Shown here piece after piece: positions 4,228 through 14,040 of a stretch of 32,420 nt of DNA (positions within the stretch are counted from its first letter, which is position 1; each line of letters opens with the position of its first letter). Origin of the DNA: an uncultured bacterium. Its GTDB lineage: Bacteria > Bacteroidota > Bacteroidia > Chitinophagales > CAIODY01. Below the pieces are notes generated by a model. It was not told the DNA's origin. It saw only the letters and a program-made list of their open reading frames with translations, and ran no database searches. The position numbers and the translations under genes were made by a program. The stretch covers positions 1 to 32,420 of the forward strand of contig CAIODY010000122.1 in NCBI GenBank assembly GCA_903857255.1. The letters run 5' to 3'.

Positions 4228-4495
4228 TTATCCGTGTATTTAGTTTCATTAAATGCTAACAAATGTTAACAACTGTTTTTTAGTGTTATTAAGTGCCACT
4301 ATTTCTCCTTTTGAGGTACAAAAATTTACTATTTCAGTTGTTTTTTTCATTAAGGTACAACAAAGGTACAAATATTCAATAAACAAACAACTATTATCAC
4401 AAAATAAAAAACACTTGAAGGTATTAAAAAAGCCCTTATTTAAAGGGCTTTGTATGGTTTTCGTATTTTTTTAGTGGGTGTTTGTTTTGTAATGG
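4228..4495. other. AT-rich terminal spacer of the element next to mnmE
   Basis: 268 bp without a convincing gene. It should hold the promoter for the leftward integrase transcript and the right attachment end of the element. It contains the hairpin described at 4425-4451 and direct AGTG-rich motifs (TTTTTAGTGTTATTAAGTGCC around 4274-4293). I see no RNA gene here. Confidence 0.5.
4425..4451 (-). terminator. Rho-independent terminator downstream of mnmE
   Basis: The 9-bp arms AAAGCCCTT (4429-4437) and AAGGGCTTT (4443-4451) are separated by 5 nt. Read on the minus strand, the hairpin is followed by a run of T. It lies about 45 bp past the mnmE stop, in the correct orientation to end mnmE transcription before it enters the element. 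If the element boundary is at the mnmE 3' end, this terminator was supplied by the element. Confidence 0.75.
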
Positions 4496-5869
4496 TTACT
4501 TTCCGATACAAAATTTTCCGAATATCGTTCCTAAAATATCTTTATCAACGCTCACTTCACCAGTAATACTGCCCAACGCATACAACGCATGACGCAGGTG
4601 AAAAGCTAATAAATCTGTTTCAAAATTTTGTTCTAAACCTTTTCTCACTTCTAATAATTCGGCTAAAGTTTTTTGTAGTTGCTCCACATGCCTTGCATTG
4701 CTAACGATGATTCCTTCTGCATTTGCGACATTTTCTAAAGAAATGTTGTAGATAATTTTTTTTAGCTCGTCAATATTTTTTTTCTCTTTAGCACTAATTT
4801 CAATCATTGGAAATTGAATATTGAGTTTTGAATATTGCGTATTCGAATCAATTTTATTCGCCACCAAAATGAGTTTCTGATTTTCAATTTTCAATTTTTC
4901 AATTTCAATTTTCAATTCATTTTCACTCATTTCATTTACATCAAAAACATACAATACCAATTGCGCTTCACGGATTTTTTCATAAGATTTTTCAACGCCA
5001 ATTTTTTCAATTTCATCATTTGCATGACGCAATCCTGCGGTGTCAATCAATCGAAAAATAATTCCGTTGATGTTTAGTGTTTCTTCAATTGTATCTCGAG
5101 TAGTGCCTGCAATGCTGCTTACAATCGCTCTATTTTCTTTCAGCAAAGCATTTAATAAAGTTGATTTGCCAGCATTTGGTTTGCCAACGATTGCAGTTGC
5201 AATTCCATTTTTCATCGCATTGCCCAATTTGAACGATTGAATCAATGGCTCGATTTTATTTTCCAATTCATTTACCAAATCGAACAATTGTTTTCTGTCA
5301 GCAAACTCAACATCTTCTTGCGAAAAATCAAGTTCCAATTCAATTAACGATGCAAACCAAATCAATCGTTCACGAAGTTGCTGCAACTCATTGCTGTAGC
5401 CGCCACGAAGTTGTTGCAAAGCCACTTTATGTGCTGATGCATTTTGTGAAGCAATTAAATCAGCTACAGCTTCGGCTTGTGATAAATCCATTTTGCCATT
5501 TAAAAATGCTCGTTGCGTAAATTCACCAGGAGCTGCTAATCGGCAACTAGACTGAATTAGAGCCTGTAAAATTTGTTGTTGAATAAATTGCGAACCATGA
5601 CATGAAATTTCAACCACATCTTCGCCTGTATAGCTGTGTGGATTTCTGAAAAGTGTAATAACAACTTCGTCAATTATTTTTTCTTTAAAAATTATTTTTC
5701 CAAAATGAGCGGTGTAACCTTTTTGTTCAGAAAGATTTTTTCCTTCGAATATTTTTGAAACAACTGCAATGGCTTCATTGCCTGATACCCGAATTACAGC
5801 AATACCGCCAACTCCGGGAGCTGTGGCAATAGCGGCAATGGTATCTTGATTGGAAAAATTAGTTTGCAT
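4496..5869 (-). CDS. mnmE: tRNA uridine-5-carboxymethylaminomethyl GTPase MnmE
   Basis: 457 residues with MQTNFSNQDTIAAIA as start. A longer frame from 5911 adds 14 residues that do not look like family sequence. With MnmG it installs the cmnm5 group on wobble U34 of certain tRNAs. The N-terminal folate-binding domain occupies about 5-120. The G domain carries G1 GKPNAGKST (229-237), G2 TTRDT (256-260), G3 DTAG (276-279) and G4 NKID (338-341). The C-terminus ends FCIGK with the conserved catalytic Cys455. Although an element abuts its 3' end, the reading frame and the last residues are intact, as expected if integration recreates the gene end. Confidence 0.97.
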   Translation of the reverse strand: MQTNFSNQDTIAAIATAPGVGGIAVIRVSGNEAIAVVSKIFEGKNLSEQKGYTAHFGKIIFKEKIIDEVVITLFRNPHSYTGEDVVEISCHGSQFIQQQILQALIQSSCRLAAPGEFTQRAFLNGKMDLSQAEAVADLIASQNASAHKVALQQLRGGYSNELQQLRERLIWFASLIELELDFSQEDVEFADRKQLFDLVNELENKIEPLIQSFKLGNAMKNGIATAIVGKPNAGKSTLLNALLKENRAIVSSIAGTTRDTIEETLNINGIIFRLIDTAGLRHANDEIEKIGVEKSYEKIREAQLVLYVFDVNEMSENELKIEIEKLKIENQKLILVANKIDSNTQYSKLNIQFPMIEISAKEKKNIDELKKIIYNISLENVANAEGIIVSNARHVEQLQKTLAELLEVRKGLEQNFETDLLAFHLRHALYALGSITGEVSVDKDILGTIFGKFCIGK

Positions 5870-6369: not shown

Positions 6370-6822
6370 TTATTGCGCTAATAACTGTTTTACCATTTCT
6401 GAAACCATCTTCCCATCAGCTTTTCCAGCTAATTGTTTTGAAGCAATACCCATCACTTTGCCCATATCGGCTGGGGATTTTGCGCCTACTTGTTCAATGA
6501 TTGGTTTCAATAATTCTTTTACCTCATCGGCTGAAAGCTGCTTTGGCAAATAACTTTCAATCACTTCCAATTCTTCTTTTTCCTTCAATGCTAAATCAGC
6601 ACGATTTTCTTTTTCAAAAATTTCTAACGACTCTTTTCTTTGTTTTGCTAATTTTGAAAGCACCTGAATTTCTTTTTCTTCGGTCAAATTTTCGGCTGCT
6701 CCCTTTTCAGTTTGAGCTAATAAAATAGCACTTTTGATGGCTCTCAAACCACGTAATCTGCCTTCTTGTTTGGCTAACATGGCTTCTTTGATGGAACTGT
6801 TTATTTTTTCTACTAAACTCAT
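6370..6822 (-). CDS. GatB/YqeY-domain protein
   Basis: 150 residues, the standard length for YqeY proteins. It starts MSLVEKINSSIKEAMLAKQ and contains LRAIKSAI (residues 26-33), ESYLPKQLS (89-97) and the terminal GKVMGIASKQLAGKADGKMV (121-140). The family is homologous to the tail domain of amidotransferase subunit GatB, which contacts tRNA, and is presumed to be tRNA-associated; no reaction is assigned. It is the first gene of a two-gene operon with the EVE-domain protein and is divergent from the methionine synthase locus. Confidence 0.93.
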   Translation of the reverse strand: MSLVEKINSSIKEAMLAKQEGRLRGLRAIKSAILLAQTEKGAAENLTEEKEIQVLSKLAKQRKESLEIFEKENRADLALKEKEELEVIESYLPKQLSADEVKELLKPIIEQVGAKSPADMGKVMGIASKQLAGKADGKMVSEMVKQLLAQ

Positions 6823-8065: not shown

Positions 8066-8093
8066 AAATTTTGAAGAATAAAAATGATTTAGA

Positions 8094-8627
8094 ATGAAAA
8101 ATAAATCTACTGAACTAATTATTTCCGACACACAAATTTTAGAGCGAATATTTGTTATTCGAGGACAGAAAGTGATGCTGGATAGTGATTTAGCAGAAAT
8201 GTATGGTGTTGAAACGAAAGTTTTAATGCAATCAGTAAAAAGAAATTTTAAGCGATTCCCTGATGACTTCATGTTTCAAATCACGAAGGAAGAATTTGAA
8301 AACTTGAAGTCACAATTTGTGACTTCAAGTTGGGGTGGTAAAAGAAAACTTCCTTATGCTTTCACCGAGCAAGGCGTAGCAATGCTTTCAAGCATTTTGA
8401 AATCGGATAGAGCGATTGAAGTGAATATTCAAATCATCCGATTGTTTACCAAAATGAAGGAATTTATTTTAGAACATAAAGACTTGTATTTGAAATTGGA
8501 ACAGTTGGAATTTAAGTTCACATCGCACGATAGAAAAATGAAAACCATTTTTGATTACCTGAATAAATTATTGCAACAAGAAGCAAAGCCAAGAACAGTG
8601 GTTAAAGGATTTAAACAAAAACAATAG
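8094..8627 (+). CDS. ORF6N-domain protein
   Basis: 177 residues. Residues 9-95 match the ORF6N domain as I know it: ILERIFVIRGQKVMLDSDLA, then YGVETKVLMQSVKRN, FPDDFMFQIT, LKSQFVTSSWGG and LPYAFTEQGVAMLSSIL. The C-terminal third is a predicted coiled-coil (residues 120-165) with a basic tail. ORF6N domains occur in phage antirepressor-type proteins and as many chromosomal copies in Bacteroidota; they are believed to bind DNA, but the role of the chromosomal copies is unknown. The gene is inserted between the two halves of methionine synthase in the same orientation. A perfect 31-bp palindrome at 8301-8331 lies inside its coding sequence and shares its core with two upstream sites, suggesting autoregulation. 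Confidence 0.9.
   Translation: MKNKSTELIISDTQILERIFVIRGQKVMLDSDLAEMYGVETKVLMQSVKRNFKRFPDDFMFQITKEEFENLKSQFVTSSWGGKRKLPYAFTEQGVAMLSSILKSDRAIEVNIQIIRLFTKMKEFILEHKDLYLKLEQLEFKFTSHDRKMKTIFDYLNKLLQQEAKPRTVVKGFKQKQ
8301..8331. promoter_or_regulatory. Perfect 31-bp palindrome inside the ORF6N gene
   Basis: Arms AACTTGAAGTCACAA (8301-8315) and TTGTGACTTCAAGTT (8317-8331) are exact complements around a single central T. It encodes the ENLKSQFVTSSW segment of the domain. The core is shared with the leader palindromes at 8013-8039 and 8045-8065. A binding site or a transcript hairpin is possible; the role is inferred. Confidence 0.7.
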
Positions 8628-8712: not shown

Positions 8713-11388
8713 ATGACTTTTATCAAACCATATCTCACTCTTGCAGGTCTTGAACCTTTAACGATTCGACCAGAAACTAATTTCATCAACATTGGCGAAC
8801 GAACAAACGTAACTGGTTCAAAAATGTTTGCTCGATTAATCAAAGAAGACAAATACGATGAAGCCTTGGCTGTGGCTTTACAGCAGGTGGAAAATGGCGC
8901 ACAGGTAATTGATGTGAACATGGATGAAGGCATGTTGGATGGCGAAGCGGCGATGACCAAATTTTTAAATTTGATTGCCAGCGAACCCAACATCAGCAAA
9001 GTGCCGATAATGATTGACAGCAGCAAGTGGAGTGTGATTGAAGCAGGTTTGAAATGTGTGCAAGGCAAAGCGATTGTAAATTCCATTTCGATGAAAGAAG
9101 GTGAAGCGAAATTTATTCACGAAGCTGAATTGTGTTTGATGTACGGCGCAGCCGTTGTGGTAATGGCTTTCGACGAACAAGGGCAAGCTGATACGATTGA
9201 AAGAAAAGTTTCGATTTGCGAAAGAGCTTATAAAATTTTAACCGAACAAGTTGGCTTTGCTCCTCAGGATATCATTTTCGACCCTAACATTTTCGCTGTA
9301 GCAACAGGTATTGAAGAGCATAATAATTATGCCGTGAATTTTATTGAAGCCACAAGAATCATCAAACAAAAAATGCCGTTGGCAAAAGTGAGTGGCGGTG
9401 TGAGCAATGTGTCATTTTCGTTCAGAGGAAATGATGTAGTTCGTGAAGCTATTCATTCAGTGTTCTTGTATCATGCTATCAAAGCAGGTATGGACATGGG
9501 TATTGTGAACGCAGGAATGATTCAGGTTTATGATGAAATTGAACCGAAATTATTGGAGTTGGTGGAAGATGTAATATTAAATCGAAGAGATGATGCAACA
9601 GAAAGATTAGTTGCGCATGCTGATACAATTAAGAGCAAAGGAAAAGTTTTAGTAAAAGATGAATCGTGGCGCAAAGGCACAGTGGAAGAGCGTTTAACGC
9701 ATTCATTGGTGAACGGCATCATCGAATATATTGATGTGGATACAGAAGAAGCACGACAAAAATATGGTCGTCCGTTGTTTGTGATTGAAGGTCCGTTGAT
9801 GGCTGGAATGAGTGTGGTTGGTGATTTATTTGGTAGCGGAAAAATGTTTTTACCACAAGTGGTAAAGAGCGCAAGAGTGATGAAAAAAAGTGTGGCTTAT
9901 CTCACACCATTTATCGAACAAGAAAAATTAGATAACCCCAATTTTGACCAAGGTGGTGCAAAGAAAATATTGATGGCAACGGTGAAAGGCGATGTGCACG
10001 ACATCGGCAAAAACATAGTGGGTGTGGTTTTGGGCTGCAATGGTTATGAAATTATTGATTTGGGAGTGATGGTTCATGCCGAAAAAATATTGCAAACAGC
10101 TAAAGAAAAAAATGTTGACATTATTGGTTTAAGTGGATTGATTACGCCATCGTTGGATGAAATGGTTCATGTGGCAAGCGAAATGCAACGTCAAGGTTTT
10201 ACCATTCCATTGATGATTGGCGGTGCCACTACATCCCGAATGCATACTGCTGTAAAAGTAGCACCAGCCTACAATCATGCAGTGATTCATGTGTTGGACG
10301 CATCGAAAAGTGTGAATGTTTCAACCACTTTGTTGAGTGAAGAAAAAGAAAAGTTTACTGCCGAGGCAAAAGCAGAATATCAAAAACTGGCAGAAGATTT
10401 TGCCAATAAAAAATCTGACAAAAAATTATTGCCAATTGAAAAAGCAAGAGAAAATAAATTTAAAATTGATTGGGCAAAAGAAAAAATTGCGAAACCAAAT
10501 TTCATCGGCGTAAAACATTTAGTGAATTACGACTTGGCTGAAATAGCTGAATACATTGACTGGACGCCGTTTTTCATCACTTGGGAAATGCACGGAAAAT
10601 TTCCTGCTATTTTAAAAGATGAAGTAGTTGGCGAACAAGCAACACATTTATATAATGATGCTCAAAAAATGTTGCAGCAAATTATTGCTGAAAAATGGTT
10701 GACTGCAAAAGCATCGTTCGGAATTTTTGAAGCGAATTCAAATGATGCAGATGATGTGCAAATCAATTTACAATCATCAAAAACTAATTTACAATTTTTA
10801 AGACAACAGTCTGAAAAAGCAAAAGGACAACCGAATTTATGTTTAGCTGATTTTATTGCTCCTCAAAATTCTGACAAGAAAGATTACATCGGCGCATTTG
10901 CTGTTACTGCAGGAATTGGCATTGAAAAACACGTAAAGCAATTTGAAGACAATCATGATGATTATTCTTCTATCATGTTGAAAGCTTTGGCTGATAGGCT
11001 TGCAGAAGCATTTGCAGAATTATTGCACAAAAAAGTTCGTACCGAATATTGGGGTTATGAAACTACTGAAACTTTAACCAACGAACAACTGATTGCTGAA
11101 GAATACAATGGCATTCGCCCTGCACCAGGCTATCCCGCTTGCCCCGACCATACTGAAAAAATAAAATTGTTTGAGTTGATTGATGCAACTAAACAATCTG
11201 AAATTACTTTAACAGAATCGCTGGCGATGTATCCAGCGGCAAGTGTGAGTGGTTGGTATTTTGCTTCGCCACATGCTAAATATTTTGGTGTTGGAAAAAT
11301 TGACAAATCGCAATTAGCTGATTATGCTCAACGCAAAGGACTGAGTTATGAAGAGGCGGAGAAATGGTTGAGACCTGCGTTGGGGTAA
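8713..11388 (+). CDS. metH: Methionine synthase, folate/cobalamin/reactivation half
   Basis: 891 residues holding the remaining MetH modules in order. The pterin-binding domain is at about 20-300 ([35 protein letters not shown]). The cobalamin cap and B12-binding domains span about 310-560, with DVHDIG in which H429 is the lower axial ligand. The AdoMet-binding reactivation domain spans about 590-891, with [12 protein letters not shown] at 802-813. With the 340-residue upstream half the total is 1231, close to E. coli MetH (1227), so no module is lost. It transfers methyl from 5-methyltetrahydrofolate via cobalamin to homocysteine bound by the partner protein. Presence of the reactivation domain implies dependence on a reductase encoded elsewhere. 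Confidence 0.96.
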
Positions 11389-11501
11389 TTAAATTTGCAT
11401 AACTTTTTTATCAATTAACTTTTTTGGGTTAATATTGATGAAAGGAAATCAACAGAACTAAAAAAAATATTCTCTAAAATTGCATAAAACAATTAGAAAC
11501 A

Positions 11502-11999
11502 ATGGCTTTCGAAAGTTTAACAAATGATAAAATTGCAGACTTACTGAACTGCCTAAAAAAACTAACAAACCCTCAATCTCGAAGCAAAGAGAAGGAGGGT
11601 CATGAGCAGGTAAACTACAGGGTTGTTGCAACAGATGGAAGTAACCATGAGTTTGAGGTATACAAGCGTCAAAATTTAAGAGAGGGAATGGAAGATGATT
11701 TTTCTTGTGGTATAAGTTGGGTTGCACCAAATGGAGAAACTCTTACACTTAAACGCTATAATGGCTCAAGCCATAATCATCCCAATAAGCTTGAAAATAT
11801 TTCTCTTGGATATAATTGTCATATTCACATAGCCACAGAGAAGTATATTAAAGCAAATAAAAAAGCAGAAGAATTTGCAGAAGTTACAGATAGATACAAC
11901 ACTTTAGAAGGTGCATTACATTGCTTGGTTATAGATTGTAAAATATCAGGAATCCAGACTTCGCCAGACTCATTGAATCAAACTAAATTATTTGAATAA
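11502..11999 (+). CDS. Small uncharacterised protein paired with the DUF1828 protein
   Basis: 165 residues. I do not recognise it with certainty. It resembles a family I recall as DUF6978 that occurs beside DUF1828 genes, but this is unconfirmed. Visible are a helical N-terminus (LTNDKIADLLNCLKKL), a beta-rich middle (VNYRVVATDGSNHEFEVYKR, then DFSCGISWVAP and GETLTLKRYNG), a histidine-rich stretch SSHNHPNK and GYNCHIHIATEKYI (residues 104-117), and a helical C-terminus. The stop codon TAA overlaps the ATG of the next gene by one base (TAATG), so the pair is translationally coupled. It forms a two-gene cassette inserted between metH and pepT and could be an antitoxin- or nuclease-like partner; that is inference. 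Confidence 0.75.
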   Translation: MAFESLTNDKIADLLNCLKKLTNPQSRSKEKEGHEQVNYRVVATDGSNHEFEVYKRQNLREGMEDDFSCGISWVAPNGETLTLKRYNGSSHNHPNKLENISLGYNCHIHIATEKYIKANKKAEEFAEVTDRYNTLEGALHCLVIDCKISGIQTSPDSLNQTKLFE

Positions 12000-12784
12000 T
12001 GAATTTAGATGTTAACAAACTTCAGGAAACTCTTTGCTCATTAATGTGCGCTGAGGTTAAATTGCGAACTAAAAACAGTAAGCTACTTGCAATTGAAACA
12101 CCTTTTTTCTTTGCAGATGGCGACCCATACCAAATCTATATCAAAGAAATGCCAGGAGGGCAAATTCGGCTTACAGATATGGGGCATACAATGATGCATC
12201 TTAGCTATGACAATGATGTAGACAAATTTAGAGAAGGTACTCGTGGGAATATATTTAGTCAAATAAAATCTGAAACTTTAGTAGATGAAGAAAATGGTGA
12301 ATTTTATATCGACACACCAATAGAGAGCCTTGGGTTTAATATTTTTAGACTTGGTCAAGCATTAACAAAAATCAATGACCTGACATTTTTGAATAGAGCA
12401 AGAGCTGAATCCACATTTTATGAAGACTTACAAGAACAATTGAAAAAAATTGTATCAGAGGAAAAAATTAAAAAGGATTACTATTACAATGAAATGGAAA
12501 ATTCACGAGATTACCCTATTGATTACAGAATAGAGGGCAAGCACTCTCCACTTTTTTTGTTCGGGATTCCAAATAAAGATAAGGCCAGATTAACCACAAT
12601 TATTTTGGAAAGGTTATTAAGAGCGAATGCTGATTTTGATAGTATCCTAATATTCTCAGACCAAGGGACAATGCCTAAACAAGACTTAGCTAGACTTTCA
12701 AACGCAGGCGGTGAAATGATTGCTTCATTAGATGCGGAAGCAGATTTCTCTAGAAAGTTATTACGCAAAGTTTCTCTTAACTAA
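11999..12784 (+). CDS. DUF1828/DUF1829-type protein
   Basis: 261 residues. The N-terminal half (about 30-115) has the DUF1828 pattern: IETPFFFADGDPYQIYIKE, followed by IRLTDMGHTMMHLSYD (residues 56-71) and a DTPIESLGFNIFRLGQAL segment. The C-terminal half (about 165-258) fits DUF1829: HSPLFLFGIPNKDKARLTTI, FDSILIFSDQG, then DAEADFSRKL. Both domains are uncharacterised and are found in variable genomic regions. The gene starts within the stop codon of its partner and ends 8 bp before pepT. Candidate roles are host defence or a toxin-antitoxin-like function, based on cassette form and location rather than on visible catalytic motifs. Confidence 0.78.
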   Translation: MNLDVNKLQETLCSLMCAEVKLRTKNSKLLAIETPFFFADGDPYQIYIKEMPGGQIRLTDMGHTMMHLSYDNDVDKFREGTRGNIFSQIKSETLVDEENGEFYIDTPIESLGFNIFRLGQALTKINDLTFLNRARAESTFYEDLQEQLKKIVSEEKIKKDYYYNEMENSRDYPIDYRIEGKHSPLFLFGIPNKDKARLTTIILERLLRANADFDSILIFSDQGTMPKQDLARLSNAGGEMIASLDAEADFSRKLLRKVSLN

Positions 12785-12792
12785 TTTTCATT

Positions 12793-14040
12793 ATGAATTT
12801 CTTTAATTACAACTTTACAGCTGCTGAACGCTTTATGCGTTATGTGCAAATCGATACGCAATCTGACCCGAATTCTCCTACTTGCCCGAGTACGGAAAAG
12901 CAAAAAAATTTAGGAAAAGTTTTAGTGGAGGAATTAAAAGCTATCGGCATTAAAGATGCCGAAATGGACGAGCATGGCTATGTGTACGCCACCATCGAAA
13001 GCAATACTTCGAAAAATGTTCCTGTGTTGTGCTTTTGTTCACACATGGATACATCGCCCGATTGCAGCGGTTTGAATGTGAAACCAATCGTACACAAAAA
13101 TTATCAGGGTGGTGATTTAGTATTGCCAAACGACAATTCACAAGTGATTCGTTTCAGCGAACATAATGATTTGAAACATCAGATTGGCAATGATATTATC
13201 ACGGCTGACGGCACAACTTTATTAGGTGCTGATAACAAAGCCGGTGTGGCTGAAATTATGGATGCTACTCTTTTTCTGATGAATCATCGGGAAATTAAAC
13301 ATGGCAAAATCAGAATTTTATTTACACCTGATGAAGAAATTGGCAGAGGCGTTGACAAAGCTGATATGAAAAAACTCGGTGCTGATTTCGGTTACACAAT
13401 GGATGGCGAAACATTAGGTCATATCGAAAATGAAACTTTTAGTGCTGATGGAGCAAGCCTTATCATTAAAGGGTTTCCGACACACCCAGGTTTTGCAAAA
13501 AACAAAATGCAACATGCCATAAAAATTGCTGCGGAAATAATTAATCAATTACCAAAAAATAAATCGCCCGAAACCACTGAAAAGAAAGAGCCTTTCATTC
13601 ATCCTACATCTATCAATGGCGGATTGGATTCTGTTGAAATCAAATTCATCATTCGTGCTTTTGATGCTAAAACACTAATTGCTTTAGAGGATGAATTAAA
13701 AAACATTGCTGCTTCAGTTTTAGCGAACTACAACAAATGCAGTTTTAAAATGAAAGTAACCGAGCAATATCGAAACATGAAAGATGTGTTGGATGCTAAT
13801 CCGCAAGTTTGCGAATATGCAGCGGAAGCAGTGAAGCGAACTGGTGTAACACCTGTATTATCAAGCATTCGCGGCGGTACTGATGGTTCACGATTGTCAT
13901 TCATGGGTTTGCCTTGTCCGAATATTTTTGCAGGCGAACATGCATTTCACAGCAAACAAGAATGGGTGAGTATTCAAGACATGAACAAAGCCGTTGAAAC
14001 GATTATTCACTTAGTGCAGATTTGGGAAGAGAGTGCGTAA
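12793..14040 (+). CDS. pepT: Peptidase T (tripeptide aminopeptidase)
   Basis: 415 residues, full length for PepT of the M20B zinc peptidase family, which removes N-terminal residues from tripeptides in the cytoplasm. Metal and catalytic residues are visible: H84-x-D86 (CSHMDTSPD), D147 (LLGADNKAG), E181/E182 (FTPDEEIGRG), a later Asp in YTMDGE and the final His in AGEHAFHSKQEW. The dimerisation (lid) domain spans about 210-320. The start lies 8 bp after the DUF1828 gene stop, so it may be read through from that cassette. Its own promoter was probably further upstream before the cassette was inserted. Confidence 0.95.
   Translation: MNFFNYNFTAAERFMRYVQIDTQSDPNSPTCPSTEKQKNLGKVLVEELKAIGIKDAEMDEHGYVYATIESNTSKNVPVLCFCSHMDTSPDCSGLNVKPIVHKNYQGGDLVLPNDNSQVIRFSEHNDLKHQIGNDIITADGTTLLGADNKAGVAEIMDATLFLMNHREIKHGKIRILFTPDEEIGRGVDKADMKKLGADFGYTMDGETLGHIENETFSADGASLIIKGFPTHPGFAKNKMQHAIKIAAEIINQLPKNKSPETTEKKEPFIHPTSINGGLDSVEIKFIIRAFDAKTLIALEDELKNIAASVLANYNKCSFKMKVTEQYRNMKDVLDANPQVCEYAAEAVKRTGVTPVLSSIRGGTDGSRLSFMGLPCPNIFAGEHAFHSKQEWVSIQDMNKAVETIIHLVQIWEESA

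Follow-up and report, generated by a model that had tools for sequence, protein, structure and literature searches.

The question raised by this locus is what two adjoining genes of no established role, here called A and B, do between the housekeeping genes metH and pepT in an uncultured bacterium of the Chitinophagales (Bacteroidota). The window, that is, the whole stretch of DNA that was analysed, comprises 32,420 nucleotides of contig CAIODY010000122.1. An initial annotation had put the two genes forward as a candidate defence or toxin-antitoxin-like module. We consider it an even call that they form a mobile, prophage-associated defence or toxin-antitoxin-type module of the PDC-M24 class, in which A would be the effector and B its partner. 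The features concerned are as follows.

11502-11999, plus strand: gene A, 165 aa, a divergent DUF6978 protein from the family of PADLOC PDC-M24A
11999-12784, plus strand: gene B, 261 aa, a DUF1828 protein, PADLOC PDC-M24B
11465-11501, plus strand: A+T-rich leader containing TAAAATTGCAT, similar by eye to those of loci L010 and L017
11410-12782, no strand assigned: replaceable unit, missing from the same-genus genome G001, in which another ORF, of 250 aa, lies between metH and pepT

A compact gene pair in a variable slot

The last base of the A stop codon (TAA, 11997-11999) is the first base of the B start codon, and by this TAATG overlap the two genes are translationally coupled. The metH gene (8713-11388) lies upstream of the pair and pepT, which encodes an M20 peptidase, lies downstream, its ATG at 12793 falling 8 bp past the stop codon of B. 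The overlap, the flanking genes and the spacing to pepT had all been described in the initial annotation and were confirmed in the ORFs of the window. Both ORFs are genuine and not the product of chance, since they recur with 50-85% identity and in the same order in dozens of distant genomes. The TAAAATTGCAT element in the leader is possibly a Bacteroidota-type -7 element, and the leader is proposed, from its sequence, as a candidate promoter that would travel with the A-B unit.

Nucleotide homology between the window and G001 (88-91%) stopped at 11409 and restarted at approximately 12783. Since G001 carries another ORF instead of A and B, the gap between metH and pepT is a variable slot; in G002, also of the same genus, different genes follow metH. 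Neither A nor B was found in any of 60 relatives, two same-genus genomes included. Relatives of B with 66-85% identity were present in Bacteroidales, Vicingaceae, Chitinophagaceae, Flavobacterium, Balneolaceae, Ignavibacteria, Chlorobiaceae and Nitrospirae MAGs, with 75-85% identity between orders and phyla, whereas the metH gene of the host is merely 73-75% identical inside its own family. In pairwise comparisons with the window, DNA similarity was limited to A and B plus, at most, a short leader. The absence from relatives, the identity of B across phyla and the ending of similarity at the pair point to recent transfer of a compact unit, and the A-B unit is horizontally mobile. The earlier description of the pair as a compact module whose position varies was borne out by the G001 slot and by the patchy spread of the pair; strict vertical conservation with pepT, which that annotation had named as the contrary outcome, was not seen.

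Several further observations were made at and around such loci. The 250-aa ORF of G001 (locus L042) has an apparent signal peptide. On the other side of metH in the window, just upstream of it, an ORF6N-domain gene (8094-8627, plus strand; PF10543, E = 2e-37) has nucleotide homology in G002 and is absent from G001, which marks it as a second accessory gene. Plasmid carriage was not found for A and was found for one distant B only. At L010, a 63-nt repeat (79%) at 8428-8490 and 10859-10921 brackets A-B together with one further ORF. At L022, 35-nt attC-like repeats (6497-6531 and 8068-8102, and also 188-222; 91% and 80% identical to the reference copy) directly follow ORFs and flank A-B on either side, and are possibly a cassette array. 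An integron-cassette origin of the pair was rejected, as the folding z-scores of the L022 repeats were unremarkable and the window has no such repeats.

A and B occur together, and A is more often the broken gene

Among the complete loci of B relatives, gene A always immediately preceded B; the exceptions were contig ends and L011, where decay has left only the final 20 codons of A. A search with A led to 15 viral contigs, and in every one of them B came next. In a sample of 296 genomes from the phylum of the window, DUF1828 occurred in 42 genomes and A-type matches in 25, and these matches adjoined DUF1828, save for two weak fragments. Most canonical DUF1828-DUF1829 proteins of the same sample for which upstream DNA was readable followed a small DUF6978-like protein whose end meets their start. 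The gaps between A and B were mostly -4 to +3 bases, and the distances of A and of B were correlated (r = 0.91, 0 of 2000 permutations), a correlation that linkage alone could produce. The two genes are linked and co-occur strictly; whether the families occur together elsewhere had been left as a check, and they were found paired across phyla and in viral contigs.

A was broken and B intact at L011, at L016 and L017 (an in-frame stop in each), and in G222 and G323, and probably also in G301 and G260; the opposite state, B broken and A intact, was found at L074 and L078 only. Given the gene lengths, the excess of broken A genes had a P value of 0.02 (7 of 9) or 0.08 (5 of 7), in a small and partly query-dependent count of loci with exactly one broken gene that includes draft MAGs, in which draft errors are possible.

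Families and predicted structures of the two proteins

The match of the window A protein to DUF6978 (PF22398; 19.7 bits, E = 0.001) was below the curated cut-off of 29.6. Because 22 of 26 A relatives matched DUF6978 at an E value of 0.1 or better (best 5e-11), and because hhalign comparison of A with canonical DUF6978 members gave E = 1e-7, A is called divergent DUF6978-like. It has HxHxN at the place where canonical members have HxNP; the DUF6978 and DUF1828-DUF1829 pairs of phages and bacteria have the same order and position as A-B. The histidine-rich core remarked on in the initial annotation is present (SSHNHPN...CHIHI), with invariant histidines. Invariant residues of the window subfamily include R85, Y86, N87, G88, H91, H93, N95, H107 and H109, and R85, H91, H107 and H109 are invariant through the whole DUF6978-like family.

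The predicted model of A was beta-rich (pLDDT 93.2, pTM 0.87). Fold searches of the PDB and a viral library with this model gave no confident match, the best being VIA (Z 5.2, rmsd 4.3 over 89), and neither the A nor the B profile matched the sequences of solved structures. The motif of TumE (PF20126), RYDNAPH...HHKH, resembles RYNGxxH...CHIH of A, and the predicted strand order is similar; TumE is shorter. The resemblance to TumE was taken as motif likeness only and not as proof of homology: the profile comparison was not significant as homology (p of approximately 0.02, 4 of 200 shuffles scoring as high; hhalign probability below 5), and Pfam gave no TumE match.

For B, the LTDMG motif and DUF1828 domain that had been read from the sequence were both confirmed: RLTDMGHTM is present, and PF08861 matched at E = 3.5e-23 (82.1 bits against a cut-off of 22). 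The accompanying DUF1829 label did not stand, as Pfam gave no match to PF08862 in B, in 25 close relatives or in the genome of the window. Comparison of B with DUF1828-DUF1829 proteins at the profile level gave E = 8e-19 over 225 columns, and the second domain of B occupies the usual place of DUF1829. When this domain was compared alone the homology was not significant, and DUF1829 was rejected for B. The predicted model of B (pLDDT 85.8, pTM 0.51) was divided as follows.

B residues ~1-110: N-domain (predicted)
B residues 108-151: long helix (predicted)
B residues ~150-260: C-domain (predicted)

For the N-domain model, the closest structures were class I type III secretion chaperones (Spa15, 2xga, Z 8.3, rmsd 3.0 over 100; InvB, Z 8.0; CesT, Z 8.0; SpcU, Z 7.8), where a Z score near 8 is middling and a common fold does not show function. 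The C-domain model was nearest to PD-(D/E)XK nucleases, among them Can2 (7bdv, Z 9.9, rmsd 3.4 over 119) and VC1899 (1xmx, Z 9.4, rmsd 3.2 over 117), along with Cdn1, BsoBI and BstEII; the best Foldseek matches for B were VC1899 and Cdn1. D175 is invariant, and the strand that follows reads PLFLFG; it has an invariant G189 where a nuclease would have (D/E)xK, a position assigned via secondary structure and not by superposition. On this model the C-domain is unlikely to be an active nuclease. D194 and K195 are nearly invariant, and B may have a displaced catalytic site.

Among defence catalogues, B matched PADLOC PDC-M24B (PDLC04539, 3e-18; PDLC04540, 8e-16), with coverage of only approximately residues 2-181. 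Up to 10 of the 12 A-family members tested matched a PDC-M24A model; the window A was missed by all of these models even at an E value of 1, and is homologous, by profile comparison, to the family members that matched. The Pfam and defence-database searches that the initial annotation had called for returned DUF1828 and PDC-M24B for B, and PDC-M24A for the family of A. The gene order of PDC-M24 is that of A-B. Judged by sequence, the window pair is a diverged subfamily of PDC-M24, which PADLOC would not recognise as a full pair. PDC-M24 itself is already on the PADLOC candidate list. No experiment on this A-B family and no paper naming PDC-M24 was found in the literature, in which DUF1828 and DUF6978 are mentioned only in passing.

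Prophage and restriction-modification contexts

Relatives of A-B were found in Pseudomonas viruses, and more distant DUF1828 relatives in Streptococcus phages and satellites, a Latilactobacillus phage and a Halorubrum virus; two phrog families take in A and B. Short viral-contig scans with single sequences and with the B alignment gave no matches. A Peptidase_S24 or HTH/Peptidase_S24 (cI-type) repressor was encoded upstream of the pair in all ten viral contigs tested, and in Pseudomonas phage 5371 an annotated cI gene lies two genes upstream. In phages, A-B occupies the lysogeny operon. In Pseudomonas phage PACT201 (L004, 4999-6242), both genes are broken by frameshifts or stops, and the annotation of this region contains small hypothetical proteins only.

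At three loci the pair lies inside an operon in the order methylase, A, B and BPTD_3080 restriction endonuclease, in a member of the Nitrospirae (L016, 4352-10979), of the Chitinophagaceae (L018, 101-7314) and of the Bacteroidales (L019, 3657-7998). These operons are mutually homologous, their methylases being 67-70% and their restriction enzymes 75-81% identical, and a related methylase lies beside the pair at L013. The association was found in just 3-4 of 22 chromosomal loci. At most chromosomal loci, the window included, the neighbours of A-B are ordinary genes, and no restriction-modification genes lie beside the pair in the window. A general restriction-modification partnership was rejected, as A-B was absent from all 30 BPTD_3080-type loci that were sampled from the phylum of the window. 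PADLOC-type matches were more frequent near the pair than farther away solely owing to the restriction-modification operons. Proximity to defence genes, which the initial annotation had wanted checked, was seen inside the operons of these three loci, and PADLOC matches around the remaining loci were unremarkable. In G230 (contig C68, approximately 4333-4934) and G250 (contig C100, approximately 57559-58538), a canonical DUF1828-DUF1829 gene is arranged tail to tail with an ORF of 600-900 aa, one segment of which is shared with restriction enzymes of the BPTD_3080 family; these large ORFs are a possible further defence neighbour of DUF1828-DUF1829.

Alternative explanations

A two-component defence of a kind other than toxin-antitoxin, in which B detects nucleic acid or a phage product and switches A on, both being needed and neither being toxic alone, is the less probable course but a serious one. 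It is consistent with the retention of A and B together almost everywhere and with the two separate predicted domains of B, which would suit sensing, and the DS-5 system, which shows two-component behaviour of this kind, is a precedent (PMC13092281). Against it stand the several loci with B intact and A broken, a state that a system in need of both proteins would not long preserve. A role in the life of the prophage instead of in defence (lysogeny control, superinfection immunity or the shielding of the prophage from host systems) would account for the position after a cI-type repressor in the ten viral contigs, for the two phrog families and for the range of viruses, including a Streptococcus satellite, that carry relatives. 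It was judged improbable, as chromosomal copies remain intact across phyla and lie, with no phage genes, beside housekeeping genes or in restriction-modification operons.

Housekeeping neighbours in the window are what would be expected of an ordinary metabolic or regulatory pair with no conflict role; the patchy distribution, the transfer between phyla, the carriage by prophages and the frequent decay of A make that very unlikely. We give about as little credence, if anything slightly less, to an accessory or control pair of restriction-modification systems, for which the three operons of three lineages and the methylase at L013 speak, and against which stand the 3-4 of 22 chromosomal loci, the 30 BPTD_3080-type loci that lack A-B and the window pair with no such neighbours.

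Proposed function and comparison with known systems

In the preferred reading, that of a PDC-M24-class module with A as effector, A would be a small enzyme with the invariant cluster R85-Y86-N87...H91...H107-x-H109 at its core and with metal-dependent or RNase-like chemistry; no fold was recognised in A, and the invariant residues are the sole basis for an enzymatic role. B would be its cognate binding partner or antitoxin, a chaperone-like neutraliser whose C-domain, a nuclease fold that lacks the canonical catalytic pair, would bind a phage product or nucleic acid. A would be released upon infection or when the A-B complex is disturbed, and would then harm the phage or the infected cell. We infer the defence function, the toxic partner, the chemistry and the trigger, with predicted structures for both proteins. 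The toxin-first gene order is less usual in toxin-antitoxin systems and counts against A as the toxin.

A bolder version is offered tentatively, as something we would not bet on: A may represent a new class of small effector enzyme (an R-Y-N-x3-H / H-x-H core with no known fold) restrained by a newly built type of antitoxin, in which a type III secretion chaperone-like domain is joined to a nuclease-fold domain that is catalytically dead and serves to sense phage nucleic acid, the whole being spread over several phyla by prophages, restriction-modification operons and small mobile units. Were the proposed function right, the repertoire of phage immunity would grow by a class of enzyme and by an antitoxin architecture. 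PDC-M24 has so far been a candidate-list name only. To this are added a diverged subfamily missed by the models, universal pairing with DUF1828, a cI-linked prophage position and a form embedded in restriction-modification operons, together with a candidate active site, predicted protein architectures and a hint as to the costly partner.

Points in favour of a defence role are membership of PDC-M24A/B, the loci embedded in restriction-modification operons and the presence of DUF1829 in HipAD. HipAD (DS-6) is a validated two-gene defence system of a HipA-like kinase and a DUF3037-DUF1829 protein, and this second protein, DS-6B, is the proposed antitoxin (PMC13092281). In contrast to HipAD, A is not a kinase, and B has DUF1828 where DS-6B has DUF3037 and has no DUF1829 match in Pfam. 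In AvrRxo1-Arc1 the toxin gene comes first and a chaperone-like antitoxin second, and an inactivated toxin gene has been found beside an intact antitoxin gene (PMC4938570). The sequences are unrelated to A-B, and Arc1 is small and helical, unlike the fold predicted for B. By analogy with that system, the decay polarity weakly suggests that A, like the AvrRxo1 toxin, is the costly partner of the pair.
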